Shown one piece after another: positions 3,523 to 16,577 of a stretch of 24,731 bases of DNA; positions within the stretch are counted from its first letter, which is position 1; every line of letters starts with the position of its first letter. The translations under genes were made by a program, and so were the position numbers. The stretch comes from a virus, in the IMG/VR virus record IMGVR_UViG_3300032316_000580, positions 1 through 24,731 of that record. One strand, given 5' to 3'. The notes beneath the pieces are model-generated. The model ran no database searches. It saw only the letters and a program-made list of their open reading frames with translations, and had not been told where the DNA came from.

Positions 3523-4230
3523 ATGAGTAAACGATTTACAGAAACAACTAAATGGTCCGACCCTTGGTTCCGTTCGCTATCGACGCGTCAGAAGGCGCTT
3601 TGGCAATGGATGCTCGACAACTGCGATTGCGCCGGAGTGCTCGGCGAGATCGACTGGGGGCTGGTCTCATTCCAGATCGGCGAGACGTGCGGCGAGAACG
3701 ACATGAGCGCCTTCGCTGGGCGGGTTGAACCGTGCGGCAAGGGCTGGTGGGTGACGAAGTTCGTCGTGTTCCAAGTCGGCTACGTTGAGGCGGAAACGCT
3801 ATCGAAACCGCATCGAGGTGTTTTGAAAGCGTTGGCCAAGGCTTCGATTCCGTTGGATAAAGCAATGCAAAGCCTTTCCAAACCCTTACCAAAGGGTTTC
3901 CAAACCCTTAAGGATAAGGATAAGGATAAGGATAAGGATAAGGAGATCGTGTTGCCGGAAAAACTGAATACGCCAGAATTCGCCGACGCATGGAAAGACT
4001 GGGTTGCCTACCGCAAGGAACGCGGCCAGACGCTCAAGCCAACGACGATCAAAGCGCAGCTCGCCAAGATGCAGGACTGGGGCGCGTCCGATGCCGTCGC
4101 AGCGATCCGGCAAAGCATCATGAACGGCTGGCAAGGCATCTTCGAGCCTCGCAGCAACGGCCAGCCGAAGAAACCGGGCGGAACATCAACCTACGAACTG
4201 GAGGCACGCGCACATGGTTACACGCTCTGA
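3523..4230 (+). CDS. Phage replication initiator-like protein
   Basis: The 235-residue product has the layout of phage replisome organisers. A winged-helix-like N-terminal region (about 10-115: WSDPWFRSLSTRQKALWQWM, LDNCDCAGVLGEIDW) is followed by a Lys-Asp repeat linker (130-141). A C-terminal helical domain (about 150-208) carries FADAWKDWVAYRKERGQ and AIRQSIMNGWQGIFEP, typical of initiator C-terminal modules that contact the helicase loader. It lies directly before a DnaC-like ATPase gene and overlaps it by 17 nt, the usual initiator-loader order. No Shine-Dalgarno site is seen. The linker-coding DNA contains iteron-like repeats that may be the origin. Alternative: an O-like or DnaD-like protein; the exact subfamily is not clear. 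Confidence 0.75.
   Translation: MSKRFTETTKWSDPWFRSLSTRQKALWQWMLDNCDCAGVLGEIDWGLVSFQIGETCGENDMSAFAGRVEPCGKGWWVTKFVVFQVGYVEAETLSKPHRGVLKALAKASIPLDKAMQSLSKPLPKGFQTLKDKDKDKDKDKEIVLPEKLNTPEFADAWKDWVAYRKERGQTLKPTTIKAQLAKMQDWGASDAVAAIRQSIMNGWQGIFEPRSNGQPKKPGGTSTYELEARAHGYTL
3875..3944 (+). repeat. Iteron-like direct repeats, dyad and TAAGGA array (candidate origin)
   Basis: Two perfect 14-nt direct repeats TTTCCAAACCCTTA lie at 3875-3888 and 3897-3910, 22 nt apart. Between them AAACCCTT (3880-3887) and AAGGGTTT (3892-3899) form a perfect 8-bp inverted repeat around ACCA. Six TAAGGA hexamers follow at 3909-3944. The block codes for the linker between the two domains of the initiator. Lambda's origin, by known precedent, also consists of iterons inside the initiator gene O. 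Origin function here is inference. Confidence 0.5.
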
Positions 4231-5086
4231 AACGCCATTTGGCGAGATGCAGGCTCGCAACGTCGCCCGTCTGACCGGGCTGAAGTGCGAGTTCAACCCG
4301 GCCGCTCGCACACGCTGGGAGACCCGGCTTGCAAACACCTGGGGCGCGGGAACCCGCGAAGAGTGGGAATTCGGTCAACCCGTCTGCCGAGGCTGCGCTC
4401 AGCATCTCGACGCGACGCCGACGCAGCACGAGCTGCTCGGGTCGGTCGTCACGCTGCCCGTCTCGGTCTGCGATGACTGCATGGAACTGGTCCAAATTCA
4501 CTACGATGGCGCGGCGCACGAGCAAATGGCGACGAGCGCGACACCGAAGTGGGATGAGGTTTGCCCGGCCAAGCTCCGCGAGGCGATCTTTGGCGCTTTG
4601 CCGGCCAACGTGGACAGGGCGGCGTTCGAGCGAGTCAAGGCGTGGCGTCCGAGCAACGGCAAAGGCATCGCGATGAAAGGGCCAAGCGGCAGCGGCAAAA
4701 CGACGGCTTACTGGGCGCTTGCGCGGGAGCTTGAGCGCGAGGGACGCGCACCGGTCACGCTCAACGCGGTCGAGCTAGGCCGGATTCTGAGCAAGGCGGC
4801 ACGCGACATCGAGCAGGTCGAATGGCTCTGCGGCTGCTCGGTGCTCATGATTGACGACCTCGGGAAGGAGAAGAGCACGCCGGCGATGGCTGCGCTGCTC
4901 TGGGAAGTGCTAGACAAGCGCTACGGGCGCGGCTTGCCGGTCGTGCTCTCGACGCGGTTCACTGGCGCGGAACTGCGCGGACGATTCGGCGAGGAGTGCT
5001 TGGGCGATGACATCCTGCGGCGGCTGAACGAGCTTTGCTCGGCCGTGATTTTCCGACTGCCGGAGCAGATCGCAACGCGTTCGTGA
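4214..5086 (+). CDS. DnaC-like helicase loader ATPase with N-terminal Cys motifs
   Basis: The 290-residue product has an AAA+ ATPase core. Walker A is GPSGSGKTT (156-164), Walker B is VLMIDDLGK (210-218), a sensor-1-like LSTRFT lies at 245-250, and a C-terminal LGDDILRRLNELC carries candidate arginine-finger residues. Ahead of it, Cys58/Cys61 (CRGC) and Cys86/Cys89 (CDDC) form a likely zinc-binding site, as in DnaC-type loaders that use a Cys cluster to touch single-stranded DNA or helicase. GGAGG at 4200-4204, nine bases before the ATG, fixes the start. It overlaps the initiator gene. No phage helicase is visible in the window, so it probably recruits the host replicative helicase. Confidence 0.85.
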   Translation: MVTRSETPFGEMQARNVARLTGLKCEFNPAARTRWETRLANTWGAGTREEWEFGQPVCRGCAQHLDATPTQHELLGSVVTLPVSVCDDCMELVQIHYDGAAHEQMATSATPKWDEVCPAKLREAIFGALPANVDRAAFERVKAWRPSNGKGIAMKGPSGSGKTTAYWALARELEREGRAPVTLNAVELGRILSKAARDIEQVEWLCGCSVLMIDDLGKEKSTPAMAALLWEVLDKRYGRGLPVVLSTRFTGAELRGRFGEECLGDDILRRLNELCSAVIFRLPEQIATRS

Positions 5087-6007: not shown

Positions 6008-6604
6008 ATGCAACTAACAACGACCAAAATCACCGAGCTTTCGCTCGACCCAAGCAACGTCCGCAAACATTCGCGCCGGAACCTCGACGCGATCAAAGCG
6101 AGCCTGCGCAAATTCGGTCAGCAGAAACCAATCGTGGTGGACGCTAAAGGCATCGTGCTTGCCGGCAACGGCACGCTGACCGCTGCGCAGGAACTCGGCT
6201 GGACCGAGATCCAGATCGTGCGCACCGAGCTTGCGGGCGTCGAGGCGACGGCGTTTGCAATCGCGGACAACCGGACGGCGGAACTGGCGGAGTGGGAGGA
6301 TTCGCTGAACGACGTTTTGAAATCGCTACAAGACGAGGGCGTTGACTTGGCCGATCTTGGCTACTCGCCGGAAGACCTCGGACAATTTGCGGCCAACGCG
6401 GTCGGGATGCCGGAACTCGCAAGCGGGGACAAACAGCCATTCCAGCAAAAGACGTTCACGCTTCACGATGAGCAGGCCGAGGACGTTGACGCGGCGATTG
6501 CCAAGGCGAAGCAAATGGGCCACGGCGAAAGCGGCGTGAATGAAAACAGCAATGGCAATGCGCTGGCGTTCGTTTGCCAATCCTTCAACCGGGCGAATCC
6601 GTGA
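6008..6604 (+). CDS. ParB-like nuclease-domain protein
   Basis: The 198-residue product has the N-terminal ParB/Srx-like fold. LDPSNVRKHSRRNLDAIKAS (13-32) is followed by FGQQKPIVVD, then GNGTLTAAQELGW (53-65, the GxxR/T-type nucleotide-binding box) and AIADNRTAELAEW (84-96). Phages often carry this domain alone or fused to DNA methylases, where its exact role is unclear; partition is not implied. The remaining C-terminal part (about 130-198) is low in recognisable motifs. It is coupled by a GTGA overlap to the mom-like gene, so the two probably act in one modification pathway. No Shine-Dalgarno site; the start context is GACACATG. Confidence 0.85.
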   Translation: MQLTTTKITELSLDPSNVRKHSRRNLDAIKASLRKFGQQKPIVVDAKGIVLAGNGTLTAAQELGWTEIQIVRTELAGVEATAFAIADNRTAELAEWEDSLNDVLKSLQDEGVDLADLGYSPEDLGQFAANAVGMPELASGDKQPFQQKTFTLHDEQAEDVDAAIAKAKQMGHGESGVNENSNGNALAFVCQSFNRANP

Positions 6605-7386
6605 CCGCAAAAGAGATTGTCGTGAAGCCGATCAGCTCGCAGGACGCGTCGCGGATTGTGAAGGCGTGCCACTATTCTGGCAAAACGGCGTTTGGCTCGT
6701 TTCTCCACTTTGGAGTTTTTATTGGTGAAAAATGCGGAGGCGTCATGCAATTTGGTCCGCCGGTTGATAAAAGAAAGATTCTTCCGCTGGTTAAAGACAC
6801 GGGATGGAATGGATTTTTGGAACTCAACCGGATGGCGTTTGCCGATTGGCTTCCCAGAAATTCAGAAAGCCGGGCAATCGCCGTTGCAATGCGGCTCATT
6901 CGTAAGGCTTACCCGCACATCGAATGGGTCGTCAGCTTTGCGGATGGAACGCAATGCGGAGACGGCACGATTTATCGGGCGAGCGGGTTTTACCTGACGC
7001 AGATAAAAGAAAACCGATCAATGGGGCGAACAAGCGGCGGGGAAATTGTCGCAGACTTTGTTTCCCGACAGCTACAGGGAGAAAACACCCGCAAGCGAAT
7101 CGGTTTTAGGATGGGGGAAAGTTGGTCGGATTTTGTCAGACGAACCGGAGCGAAGAGGCTTCCCGGCTTTCAACTCCGCTACCTTTACTTTCTCAACCCG
7201 ACCGCCCGCGCTCGCCTGACCGTTCCGATCTTGCCATACAGCGAGATTGACCGGCGCGGCGCGGGGATGTATAAGGGCAAGCAGAGAATCCAATCACGCG
7301 CCGGAGGTGACACCACGGACACGCCAGTCTTCCAGACTGGAGAGGGCGGCTCGACACCGACCTCGGCGCTCCAATCTTCTGAATGA
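6601..7386 (+). CDS. mom: Mom-family adenine hypermodification enzyme
   Basis: The 261-residue product resembles Mom-family proteins. Phage Mu Mom, a GNAT-like enzyme, converts DNA adenine to N6-carbamoylmethyladenine and so blocks restriction. Recognised motifs are CHYSGKT (23-29), GGVMQFGPPVDKRKI (46-60), FLELNRMAFADWLPRNSESR (72-91), WVVSFADGTQCGDGTIYRAS (109-128) and GAGMYKGK (220-227). A GTG at 6601 overlapping the ParB-like stop is the likely start. The gene is visibly richer in A/T than its neighbours, suggesting separate acquisition. The conserved domain ends near residue 230. The last 29 residues are encoded by a tRNA-Gly-like sequence, and the gene then overlaps the small terminase start by ATGA. 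No clear Com-type regulator is present. Confidence 0.85.
   Translation: MTAKEIVVKPISSQDASRIVKACHYSGKTAFGSFLHFGVFIGEKCGGVMQFGPPVDKRKILPLVKDTGWNGFLELNRMAFADWLPRNSESRAIAVAMRLIRKAYPHIEWVVSFADGTQCGDGTIYRASGFYLTQIKENRSMGRTSGGEIVADFVSRQLQGENTRKRIGFRMGESWSDFVRRTGAKRLPGFQLRYLYFLNPTARARLTVPILPYSEIDRRGAGMYKGKQRIQSRAGGDTTDTPVFQTGEGGSTPTSALQSSE
7298..7373 (+). tRNA. tRNA-Gly(UCC)-like sequence within the 3' end of mom
   Basis: The element is 76 nt with an encoded CCA. The acceptor stem GCGCCGG (7298-7304) pairs with TCGGCGC (7363-7369), six Watson-Crick pairs plus one G-U, followed by T and CCA (7371-7373). The D-arm has a 3-bp GTG/CAC stem. The anticodon arm is perfect: CCAGT/ACTGG around loop CTTCCAG, anticodon TCC, with U33 and a purine at 37. 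The T-arm GGCGG (7345-7349) pairs with CCG-CC across a bulged A at 7360, and its loop CTCGACA keeps T55-C56-R57-A58. Departures from consensus are A at position 8, a short D-stem and the T-stem bulge. It could be a working phage tRNA, a decayed one, or a tRNA mimic or attachment remnant. Confidence 0.55.
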
Positions 7387-12731: not shown

Positions 12732-15700
12732 ATGATCCACACCCAGACAGAAATCGATAACCTTGTTGAGTTGGCTATCATCCAGCGCGCCGAGCTGAAA
12801 AAGCTGGTGGAGTCGCTGCCGCAGTTGCGCGACCATTTGTCGTCGGAGATTGAGCGCAACCTCGAAGAGATCGAGCCGGCGATCCGCAGCGAGCTGGAGC
12901 AGCTCGTCATCGCCCGCGCACAGGACGCGCACGCGCAATCCAGCGCAGCGCTGACCGCAAAGCTGGACGAACTCGGGAAGGCTTTGGAAGTCACGACGGC
13001 GGCGCGTTACTCGGTGCTTATGACCGAGCGCGAGCAAAACGCAACGCTGCTCGAAAAGGCAGAGGCGCGTATCGCTGAGGCAGCGTCGGCTTTGCCGAAC
13101 GCAGTTAAAAGCATCGTCACCGATGAACTCTCGCGCTTTCCACGTGCGGGCGAGATCGAGCAACTGCGGAAAGAATTCGCCGAACCTCGCGGGCTGAACC
13201 CTCGCGGCAAGTGGACGCCGAACGATACGTACCAAAAGTTGGACCTCGTGACGTTCAACGGCGATTCGTTCGTGTCGAACATTAACGACAACCGCGAGCG
13301 GCCGGGCCGGAACGCGACGAACTGGACGCTGAGCGCAGCACGCGGACACGGCGGCGGCGGGCCGAGCGTTGCGTCAATTACCGACCTGATTCCAGCGCCA
13401 AGCGACGGACAAATTCTTGGAAGTGTCGGGCCGAACTACGTCCCGAAGAATCTAGTCGCCGGCGCAAACATCACGATCAACCAGACATCGACTGACATCA
13501 CGATTATCGGCAACGAGGGACAGATTGAGCTTACCGATGGAACCGAAGCGGCGCCATCCCTCTTCTTCGTCAGCGACACCAATACCGGCATGTATCGCCC
13601 GGCAGCGGACACGGTGGGAATCGTCGGAGGCGGCAACGACATCGTGCGACTGACCGGAGTGGCGAGCGCGACGGATTACATTGAGATTAAGAACGGGACC
13701 GGCGTCGGAAACCCGCTCCACGTTCTGGCCGAGGGCGCGAGCACGAACATCGGCGTGCATTTGCAGCCGAAGGGCAGTGGACTTTTTACGATCAGCGACG
13801 GAACTGACTTTAACAAAGGCATCCGCTTTCGCAGTTCGTCCAGCGCTGCAAGCGCGGTGACTTTGATTGACGCCGTTTCGACAGCCGGCCGCGTGGTGAC
13901 TTTGCCTGACGCGACCGACACTCTGGTCGGACGTGCGACCACGGACACGCTGACGAACAAGACGCTGACGAGCCCGACAATGACCGCGCCCGTTCTCGGC
14001 ACTCCTGCAAGCGGCAACCTTGCGAACTGCACGTTCCCGACTCTCAACCAATCCACGACCGGCAACGCGGCTACGGCAACGGCGTTGCAGACCGCAAGAG
14101 CGATCAACGGAGTCAACTTCGACGGCACGGCAGCGATCACCGTCGCAGCCGCAGCCGGCACGCTTACCGGCGCAACGCTGGCGTCAGGCGTGACCGCATC
14201 GAGCCTGACAAGTGTTGGCACTCTCGCGGGTCTGACCGTCACTGCGCCAATCACGGGCAGCGTGACGGGATCGAGTGGGAGCACGACGGGCAACGCAGCG
14301 ACCGCGACCGCTCTGGCGACTGCACGCGCCATCAACGGCGTAAACTTCGACGGCACGGCAGCGATTACCGTCACGGCGGCGGCCGGCACGCTCTCGGGGA
14401 CAACGCTCGCGGCCGGCGTCACCGCATCCTCGCTGACCTCGCTCGGAACGATTACGAATCTCACCGCGACGGCCGGCACGATTGCGACTACGCCGAGCGG
14501 ATCGACCGACATCGCCAACAAGCTTTACGTCGACACCGTCGCGCAAGGACTCGACGCGAAAGCCTCGTGCGTCGCAGCGACCACGGCGGACATTACGCTG
14601 AGCGGAGCGCAGACAATCGACGGCGTGAGCATCGTCGCGGGCAATCGCGTGCTGGTGAAGAACCAATCGCTCTCGCAGAACAACGGAATTTATCTTTGCG
14701 CCTCGGGATCGTGGACTCGCACGAGTGACGCGAACACGTGGGACGCTCTGACCTCGGCTTTCACCTTTATCGAGCAAGGCACGGTCAACGCCGACACCGG
14801 CTACGTCTGCACGGCGAACGCAGGCGGCACGCTCGGCACGACCGCTCTGCCGTGGTCGCAGTTCTCGGGCGCAGGCACGTTTACGGCCGGCACCGGGCTG
14901 ACGCTCACCGGATCGGTCTTCTCGCTCACTTCGCCCGTCGCAGTCGCCAACGGCGGCACCGGGCTGACGAGTCTCGGCTCTGGCGTTGCGACGTTTCTCG
15001 GAACGCCGTCGAGTGCGAATCTTGCGGCGGCGGTCAGCGACGAAACGGGATCGGGTGCGCTGGTGTTTGCGACGAGTCCAACCTTGGTCACGCCAGCTCT
15101 GGGCACTCCCTCGGCTCTGGTAGGCACGAATATAACGGGAACGGCTTCGGGACTCACGGCGGGCAACGTCACGACAAACGCCAATCTAACCGGCGCAATT
15201 ACGTCGGTCGGAAACGCCACGTCGCTCGGTTCGTTCTCTTCGGCTAATTTGGCCTCTGCGCTCACCGACGAAACCGGCAGCGGCGCAAACGTGTTCGCCA
15301 CGTCTCCAACCCTCGTCACGCCAATCCTTGGAACACCTCAGAGCGGCACCCTGACGAGCTGCACGGGCCTGCCCATCAGCACGGGCGTGTCTGGTCTCGG
15401 CACGGGCGTTGCAACGGCTTTGGCGGTTAACACTGGCAGCGCGGGTGCTCCGGTGCTGTTCAATGGTGCGCTGGGCACTCCGACAAGCGGCACGGTCACG
15501 AACCTGACGGGCACGGCCTCAATCAACATTAACGGCACGGTGGGAGCCACGACGCCGAGCACGGGCGCGTTTACGACGTTGAGCGCGACGGGAAACCTGA
15601 CCCTAAGCGCAACCAACTCCAATATCCTCGGCGGCACAACAACTGGTTCGTCGTCAATTTACAATTCAACGGGAGCTGCGGGCTTTACCATTTACGGGCC

Positions 15701-16577
15701 AACCCACGCGACAAAAGCCAATCATATCGACGTTTTTGCTGGCCTCTTAGGGCACACGTTCAATTCTTCCGGATTTGCTCTTTCCGGCGCATTTACCGCG
15801 ACGGGAAATGGCACTTTTGGCGGAGGCGGCGTGTCTGGAACGTTGCTGGCGAGCAACGCTGGTGTTGACACGACGGCATACACCGCAGGCTCCTACAACG
15901 CCAACCACAGGCTGTGGCTTGGCACCGGCAACGCTACAAATGCTTATGCCGCCATCCGGTTCTCAGGTTCTGGCGGGGTGCATGAAGGGTTGTTTGGAAC
16001 CGTGCAAAATGCTTCCGGCAATGCTGAGTTTTTCTGGAACCTATACAGCGGCTCCAGCTACACAGAAAGGTTGCGTCTGTCATCTACCGGCCTTGCCGTC
16101 ACCGGTCAGATAGGCAACTCGTTCACCGGAGCAAACGGCCAGTATGCGCTTTCGTCGGACAATACGAGCAGCGCAAATTTTCATGTTTTTTACAACAGCG
16201 CGTCGGTGGCAATAGGCTCCATCAACCGCGTCACGACCACCAACGCCGTCGCCTACAACACCACCTCCGACAGGCGCATCAAAGAAAACTTCGGCCTACT
16301 CACTGAATCGGGCCGACTCATTGACTCGCTCACGCCGCGCACGTTCGACCGCAAAGACGGCACCGACAGCGATCGCAAGGGCTGGCTCGGTTTCGTGGCG
16401 CAGGAAGTCTATGCTGCGGACCCCGTTTTTGCCCGCATTGGCTTCGTGACCGTAGGCGACGACGATCCAACGGAAGTCAAAAAAACGTGGGGCGTCAGCT
16501 CCTCGCCCATCGATGCCATTGTTGTCGCCGAGCTTCAATCCCTCCGCGCCCGTGTCGCCGCTTTAGAATCCAACTAA
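12732..16577 (+). CDS. Tail fibre/spike with S74 autocleaving chaperone
   Basis: The 1281-residue product reads as a trimeric fibre. Residues 1-150 look like a long coiled coil. Residues 154-205 form a carbohydrate-binding-like module (PRGKWTPNDTYQKLDLVTFN). A Gly-rich hinge is followed by shaft repeats, including DTNTGMYRPAADTVGI near 283 and two copies of INGVNFDGTAAITV 76 residues apart. A module at about 600-700 has the GAQTIDGVSIVAGNRVLVKN pattern common in fibres. The last 103 residues are a Peptidase_S74 intramolecular chaperone. SDRRIKE places Ser1179 and Lys1184 at the five-residue spacing of the known Ser/Lys dyad, so cleavage before Ser1179 is predicted. Its place between portal and protease is unusual; such genes normally sit with the tail genes. 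Confidence 0.88.
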   Translation: MIHTQTEIDNLVELAIIQRAELKKLVESLPQLRDHLSSEIERNLEEIEPAIRSELEQLVIARAQDAHAQSSAALTAKLDELGKALEVTTAARYSVLMTEREQNATLLEKAEARIAEAASALPNAVKSIVTDELSRFPRAGEIEQLRKEFAEPRGLNPRGKWTPNDTYQKLDLVTFNGDSFVSNINDNRERPGRNATNWTLSAARGHGGGGPSVASITDLIPAPSDGQILGSVGPNYVPKNLVAGANITINQTSTDITIIGNEGQIELTDGTEAAPSLFFVSDTNTGMYRPAADTVGIVGGGNDIVRLTGVASATDYIEIKNGTGVGNPLHVLAEGASTNIGVHLQPKGSGLFTISDGTDFNKGIRFRSSSSAASAVTLIDAVSTAGRVVTLPDATDTLVGRATTDTLTNKTLTSPTMTAPVLGTPASGNLANCTFPTLNQSTTGNAATATALQTARAINGVNFDGTAAITVAAAAGTLTGATLASGVTASSLTSVGTLAGLTVTAPITGSVTGSSGSTTGNAATATALATARAINGVNFDGTAAITVTAAAGTLSGTTLAAGVTASSLTSLGTITNLTATAGTIATTPSGSTDIANKLYVDTVAQGLDAKASCVAATTADITLSGAQTIDGVSIVAGNRVLVKNQSLSQNNGIYLCASGSWTRTSDANTWDALTSAFTFIEQGTVNADTGYVCTANAGGTLGTTALPWSQFSGAGTFTAGTGLTLTGSVFSLTSPVAVANGGTGLTSLGSGVATFLGTPSSANLAAAVSDETGSGALVFATSPTLVTPALGTPSALVGTNITGTASGLTAGNVTTNANLTGAITSVGNATSLGSFSSANLASALTDETGSGANVFATSPTLVTPILGTPQSGTLTSCTGLPISTGVSGLGTGVATALAVNTGSAGAPVLFNGALGTPTSGTVTNLTGTASININGTVGATTPSTGAFTTLSATGNLTLSATNSNILGGTTTGSSSIYNSTGAAGFTIYGPTHATKANHIDVFAGLLGHTFNSSGFALSGAFTATGNGTFGGGGVSGTLLASNAGVDTTAYTAGSYNANHRLWLGTGNATNAYAAIRFSGSGGVHEGLFGTVQNASGNAEFFWNLYSGSSYTERLRLSSTGLAVTGQIGNSFTGANGQYALSSDNTSSANFHVFYNSASVAIGSINRVTTTNAVAYNTTSDRRIKENFGLLTESGRLIDSLTPRTFDRKDGTDSDRKGWLGFVAQEVYAADPVFARIGFVTVGDDDPTEVKKTWGVSSSPIDAIVVAELQSLRARVAALESN
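14055..14466 (+). repeat. 228-nt tandem duplication in the fibre shaft
   Basis: The segments at about 14055-14238 and 14283-14466 code for closely similar peptides (TGNAATATAL, ARAINGVNFDGTAAITV, AAAGTL, GVTASSLTS) with a 76-codon period. The copies differ at many third positions, so the duplication is not recent or has been kept at protein level only. A shorter pair, DETGSGA-xVFATSPTLVTP, recurs near 15040 and 15270. Confidence 0.8.

Follow-up and report, generated by a model that had tools for sequence, protein, structure and literature searches.

A candidate replication origin of helically phased iterons and TAAGGA hexamers within a phage initiator gene

In the current study, we examined a 24,731-nt stretch of viral DNA (positions 1 to 24,731 of IMG/VR record IMGVR_UViG_3300032316_000580, referred to here as the window), in which an initiator-like gene is followed by a helicase loader gene and carries a block of short repeats between its two predicted domains. 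The features of this locus are as follows.

3523..4230, plus strand: initiator gene (open reading frame of 235 aa), the C-terminal part of which matches phrog_678, 'replication initiation O-like' (E=2.4e-13)
3523..3840, plus strand: predicted winged-helix N-terminal domain, the presumed iteron binder (AlphaFold pLDDT mostly >90; VIA-align)
3869..3876, plus strand: iteron 1, AAAGCCTT (assigned by the 11-bp register)
3880..3887, plus strand: iteron 2, AAACCCTT (11-bp register and exact-match count)
3892..3899, minus strand: iteron 3, inverted, reading AAGGGTTT on the plus strand (register and match count)
3902..3909, plus strand: iteron 4, AAACCCTT, sharing one base with the hexamer array
3909..3944, plus strand: (TAAGGA)6 array, encoding a Lys-Asp linker; presumed unwinding or helicase-entry side, judging by low GC content and position
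3958..4185, plus strand: C-terminal domain, O-like/DnaD-like (phrog_678 and phrog_18589; weak 2zc2 match)
4214..5086, plus strand: DnaC-like helicase loader gene (phrog_50, E=1.9e-18; IstB_IS21, E=7.8e-12)

The phrog_678 match is confined to residues 131-220 of the protein, and residues 154-214 align weakly with the DnaD-like structure 2zc2 (Z 3.8, rmsd 2.9 over 58 residues). The best VIA-align matches of the N-terminal domain reach modest Z values (4-6) and are for the most part DNA-binding proteins of the winged-helix type; 4pta, 'Structure of MDR initiator', is among them (Z 5.6, rmsd 3.7 over 78 residues). Pfam gave no match for the protein (RepA_N included), a Foldseek search of the PDB gave nothing with an E value below 1, and comparison with named phages gave partial matches only. 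The initiators of relatives match replication-initiation, primosomal, replisome-organizer and DnaD-like PHROGs, and other members of the group that we designate A2 match DnaD-like loader PHROGs. RecT-like, exonuclease VIII-like and RusA-like genes lie upstream, and the neighborhood is that of a phage replication module. The first-pass annotation had placed the repeats in the interdomain linker of an initiator gene, a placement borne out by the PHROG matches, the predicted domains (winged helix on one side, O-like/DnaD-like on the other) and the neighboring loader gene. Elsewhere in the window, a Mom-family protein (6574-7386; PF25680, E=6e-51), preceded by a ParB_N-like open reading frame that falls below Pfam's cutoff, suggests phage DNA modification and hence that the genomic DNA is modified, and a tail-fiber-like open reading frame of 1281 aa (12732-16577) contains many internal repeats (ATALATARAINGVNFDGTAAITV...).

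The block comprises four sites of about 8 bp (3869-3909) in an 11-bp register, joined without a gap by the hexamer array; the exact inverse at iteron 3 lies 1 bp off the strict 11-bp grid (site 3891/3892). Two perfect 14-mers, TTTCCAAACCCTTA, occupy 3875-3888 and 3897-3910, 22 nt apart from start to start, and an 8-bp inverted repeat, AAGGGTTT/AAACCCTT, links them at 3892-3899/3902-3909. These direct repeats and the dyad, together with the six hexamers (all perfect, 3909-3944), had been recognized in the first-pass annotation and are all present; its outline of the block missed the fourth site upstream, AAAGCCTT at 3869-3876, and the 11-bp register. The array is 33% GC, which places it in the lowest 0.6% of 36-mers by GC content in a window of 60% GC, and the 70-nt block is in the lowest 0.35% of 70-mers. 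There is no second copy of the array elsewhere in the record.

This arrangement is not a product of chance. The exact sequence AAACCCTT occurs three times in 24.7 kb (expected, 0.35), always in the block, and none of 100 shuffles contained three copies. The four-site cluster score of 29/32 is the window maximum for period 11, six Markov shuffles having reached 25-26. A higher-scoring cluster of period 12 at positions 1-222 was rejected as an unrelated GC-rich tandem repeat that would encode Gly-Ser; its 24/48-bp units (CGGCTCCGGC...), cut by the contig start, would form a Gly-Ser-rich tail closed by a TAA near 222-224. Nor does the encoded peptide suffice to account for the repeats, as had been argued from the low complexity of the linker: no synonymous recoding of the block peptide in 20,000 reached a cluster score of 29/32, and none in 20,000 yielded a perfect 14-mer repeat at 22 nt. 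GC skew shows no clear turn at the block in the window, which is a genome fragment. For the complete phage Pan5, the detrended skew minimum lies at 28.8 kb and the corresponding element at 36.2 kb, a mismatch that is uninformative because all annotated genes are on one strand.

Comparison of seven closely related sequences (the window, L036, L066, L006, L100, L112 and L119) showed that the DNA of the iterons is kept while the peptide around them changes. Variable columns number 3/32 in iterons versus 5/12 in spacers (p = 0.025), and variable codon third positions 0/11 versus 3/4; in the N-terminal domains of the same seven sequences, 19-43% of codons for the same residue differ synonymously. 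In the last spacer, the encoded residues change from GFQTL to GLETL between unchanged iterons. This is the opposite of the outcome that had been named as refuting an origin, namely relatives that keep the peptide while losing the repeats. The number of array units also differs between close relatives.

The same layout recurs widely with different iterons. An exact 23-nt array string matched at least 119 stretches in IMG/VR viral contigs, and among the matches listed, most lie in the linkers of initiator-like genes belonging to two N-domain families (49 and 40 members) that BLAST does not join, the second being DUF6291. In 34 and 22 representatives of these families, respectively, the 66 nt upstream of the array show 11-/22-nt periodicity with z = 14.0/10.4 and 9.5/8.7 over a synonymous null, values that are descriptive only, given that the sequences are related to each other; control regions of the same genes were flat at both periods. 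Since 11 is not a multiple of 3, peptide constraint is not the source of this period. Taken per locus against a synonymous null, the 11-bp score had a p value of <0.05 at 35 of 63 array-bearing loci, and of the 28 that were not significant some fit a spacing of 10 or 12 bp. Iteron sequences vary among phages (AAACCCTT, AAGCCCCT, GAAGCGAA, AATGATT, GACCTCAA and others) while the layout stays constant. Iteron similarity partly follows N-domain identity (Spearman 0.31, a descriptive value from nonindependent pairs), and no clear columns emerged when iteron type was compared with recognition-helix residues. A 53-row alignment of N-domains proved too divergent for scanning. A degenerate Lys-Asp scan brought in further N-domains, including DUF1376 and Phage_rep_org_N; among cultured phages, a comparable layout is found near 36.2 kb in Pseudanabaena phage Pan5 and, with TACAGA-type units, in Pseudomonas phage PfAn1. 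Sets gathered by means of the array overstate its frequency, and the contigs are fragments.

A set of 95 initiators with a KRFT-type N-domain was gathered independently of the array. An array of at least three units lies within the open reading frame in 37 (in L263 and L305 possibly at a place other than the linker) and only outside it in 10; the remaining 48 have no strict array, and in many of these an iteron cluster is followed by a degenerate purine-rich stretch. The 10 outside loci form a single KRFTDTDKWKKGF clade, and so represent one evolutionary event and not ten. Both the Lys-Asp linker and the iterons are missing from their initiator gene; the element is intergenic, 2.3-5.4 kb upstream of that gene, with no open reading frame of 40 aa spanning the array, and reads AACCCTT / AACCCTT / AGGGTAT / ATACCCTT (direct-direct-inverted-direct) in an 11-bp register, plus TAARGA units. 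Noncoding copies of iterons with (YAARGA)n occur in several settings; G002 pairs an intergenic element with an initiator lacking the linker, and G006 has both an in-gene and an intergenic copy with a common GGGGC core. Given the intergenic element of the KRFTDTDKWKKGF clade and the matching iterons of the two G006 copies, constraint acts on the DNA and not on the peptide. When entire contigs were scanned for further perfect arrays, each of 16 records proved to have a single array site; the pattern used passes over imperfect copies, of which the in-gene copy of G006 is an example. Judging from such paired copies, some phages may have two origins. In L136, L210, L211, L179 and L180 (the last being the G006 contig, with its extra in-gene copy of the same core), intergenic iteron and hexamer elements lie immediately upstream of terminase-like genes. 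In L299 (5440-5640) and its relatives, an apparent Bacteroidota-type promoter (TTTG...TATCTTTG) was seen by eye just after the intergenic element.

Codon usage indicates which bases of the hexamer are favored. Across 50 initiator-type genes, GAT makes up 0.88 of the Asp codons in the arrays versus 0.73 of those elsewhere in these genes (p = 4e-5), and Lys codons are used without bias; neither codon is biased in 43 other genes with Lys-Asp repeats, a contrast weakened by the simple motif rule that made the split and left some initiators in the second set. A bias at Asp without one at Lys means that the favored unit is TAARGA, with R free. The exact hexamer is dispensable, since in many relatives the only arrays are degenerate (KEKEK, MDMDK); it is strongly favored without being obligatory. 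The array is presumed to be the unwinding side from its position and low GC content. One possibility, which we advance tentatively and regard as somewhat doubtful, is that many otherwise unrelated phage initiators have coupled their private iterons to one widespread signal for strand opening or helicase entry, (TAARGA)n, which a common factor (a host protein or the initiator C-domain) reads in single-stranded form; such a signal would move in and out of coding sequence and would be the reason that Lys-Asp linkers are so frequent in phage initiators.

Several other explanations of the block deserve consideration. Initiator binding sites frequently serve as operators too, and the iterons might be an array through which the initiator autoregulates its operon, with the origin elsewhere. 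This dual use and the apparent promoter of the intergenic clade speak for such a role, and the iteron clusters could be autoregulatory in addition. As the whole explanation we consider it improbable: the block is mid-gene in the window, a search nearby for promoters of the sigma-70-like type found none, the adjoining hexamers are left unexplained, and kilobases separate the element from the initiator gene in the intergenic clade. Low complexity that is neutral or of use to the protein, with slippage extending a flexible and charged (Lys-Asp)n linker and the repeats arising incidentally, would agree with the Lys-Asp repeats of noninitiator proteins and with unit numbers that vary between close relatives. 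It would not explain a periodicity out of codon phase, a cluster score that none of the 20,000 recodings reached, invariant iteron third positions or a T bias at GAT seen in initiators only, and the intergenic copies largely contradict it; we regard it as very improbable.

Packaging is another function to be weighed, whether at a cos/pac site or some other terminase-linked recognition site, and the copies just 5′ of terminase-like genes would suit it. Yet the usual site is inside initiator genes, the terminase genes of the window are at least 3.4 kb from the block, and the partial tracking of N-domain identity by the iterons points to the initiator; this explanation, too, has very little probability. 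Least credible, in our judgment, is that the AAACCCTT/AAGGGTTT dyad folds in RNA into a hairpin or terminator. A perfect 8-bp stem is possible, but a search for a terminator-like site at the block found none, and many relatives, such as those with DUF6291-type GAAGCGAA arrays, have direct repeats only and no stem.

We consider it probable (roughly 0.8) that the block at 3869-3944 is a phage replication origin inside the initiator gene; binding, melting, helicase loading and origin activity are inferred. The winged-helix N-domain would bind the four iterons, which, 11 bp being one helical turn, would share one face of the double helix. Once formed, this complex would open the adjoining low-GC (TAAGGA)n array, and the C-domain and the DnaC-like loader would then bring in the host helicase. 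Origins inside rep genes are familiar from phages of Gram-positive bacteria. For uncultivated phages, origins are seldom known, and if helically phased iterons joined to a hexamer array, within or close to an initiator gene, serve as a signature, both origins and initiator specificities could be read from sequence. Such a signature would also explain a widespread low-complexity linker by dual coding and would provide natural pairs of in-gene and intergenic origins for probing the role of the hexamer. Full-text searches of open-access papers found no description of the hexamer module.

Parts of this anatomy have counterparts in known systems. The Rac prophage of E. coli is described as possessing an active origin, oriJ (PMC3945230), and its initiator-like YdaU protein (DUF1376; annotated as primosomal protein I) has linker repeats followed by TAAAGA/TACAGA units; L357 (1450-2520) contains such a Rac-type YdaU linker, with GTGTTCAAACA / TGTTTGAACA repeats ahead of the TAAAGA and TACAGA units. 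The Rac-type block is a possible candidate for the oriJ site, although its N-domain is from a different family than that of the window and its hexamers are degenerate. In the DnaA-trio and other repeat-containing unwinding elements, short repeats adjoin the duplex sites of the initiator on the side that unwinds (PMC10797057), as they presumably do in the window, where the unit is instead six bases long and the initiator viral. We rejected a DnaA-trio element as such: the array does not form a run of 3′-[G/A]AT-5′, and, by inspection, only every other trinucleotide (TAA) of (TAAGGA)n fits.

The closest parallels are two origins that lie within initiator genes. The rep gene of pSK41 (RepA_N) carries four Rep boxes mid-gene, bound by the N-domain, the encoded linker being dispensable, and both Rep domains are structurally DnaD-like (PMC5703833). 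The window likewise has four boxes mid-gene with a domain on either side; its N-domain matches 4pta at a modest Z, and its C-domain resembles DnaD weakly in structure. It differs in having no RepA_N Pfam match, sites of about 8 bp at intervals of 11 bp, an array of hexamers and a phage-borne DnaC-like loader gene. The O origin is also mid-gene, with four iterons in lambda and six in Stx phages, a flanking AT-rich tract needed for unwinding and the gene for a replication partner adjacent (PMC7466680). The lambda-like placement proposed in the first-pass annotation holds for the window, whose block lies inside the open reading frame at 3523-4230 and sets four sites beside a 36-nt tract of 33% GC. 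Unlike those of lambda, its sites are short, helically phased and in one case inverted; perfect TAAGGA hexamers replace a plain AT-rich tract, O-like similarity is C-terminal only, alongside the weak DnaD-like match, and the loader is DnaC-like and not P. Given this restricted O-like similarity and the lack of a RepA_N match, membership in the lambda O-type or RepA_N family is not established. By anatomy, the best reading is that the block works like the lambda O or pSK41 rep origins.
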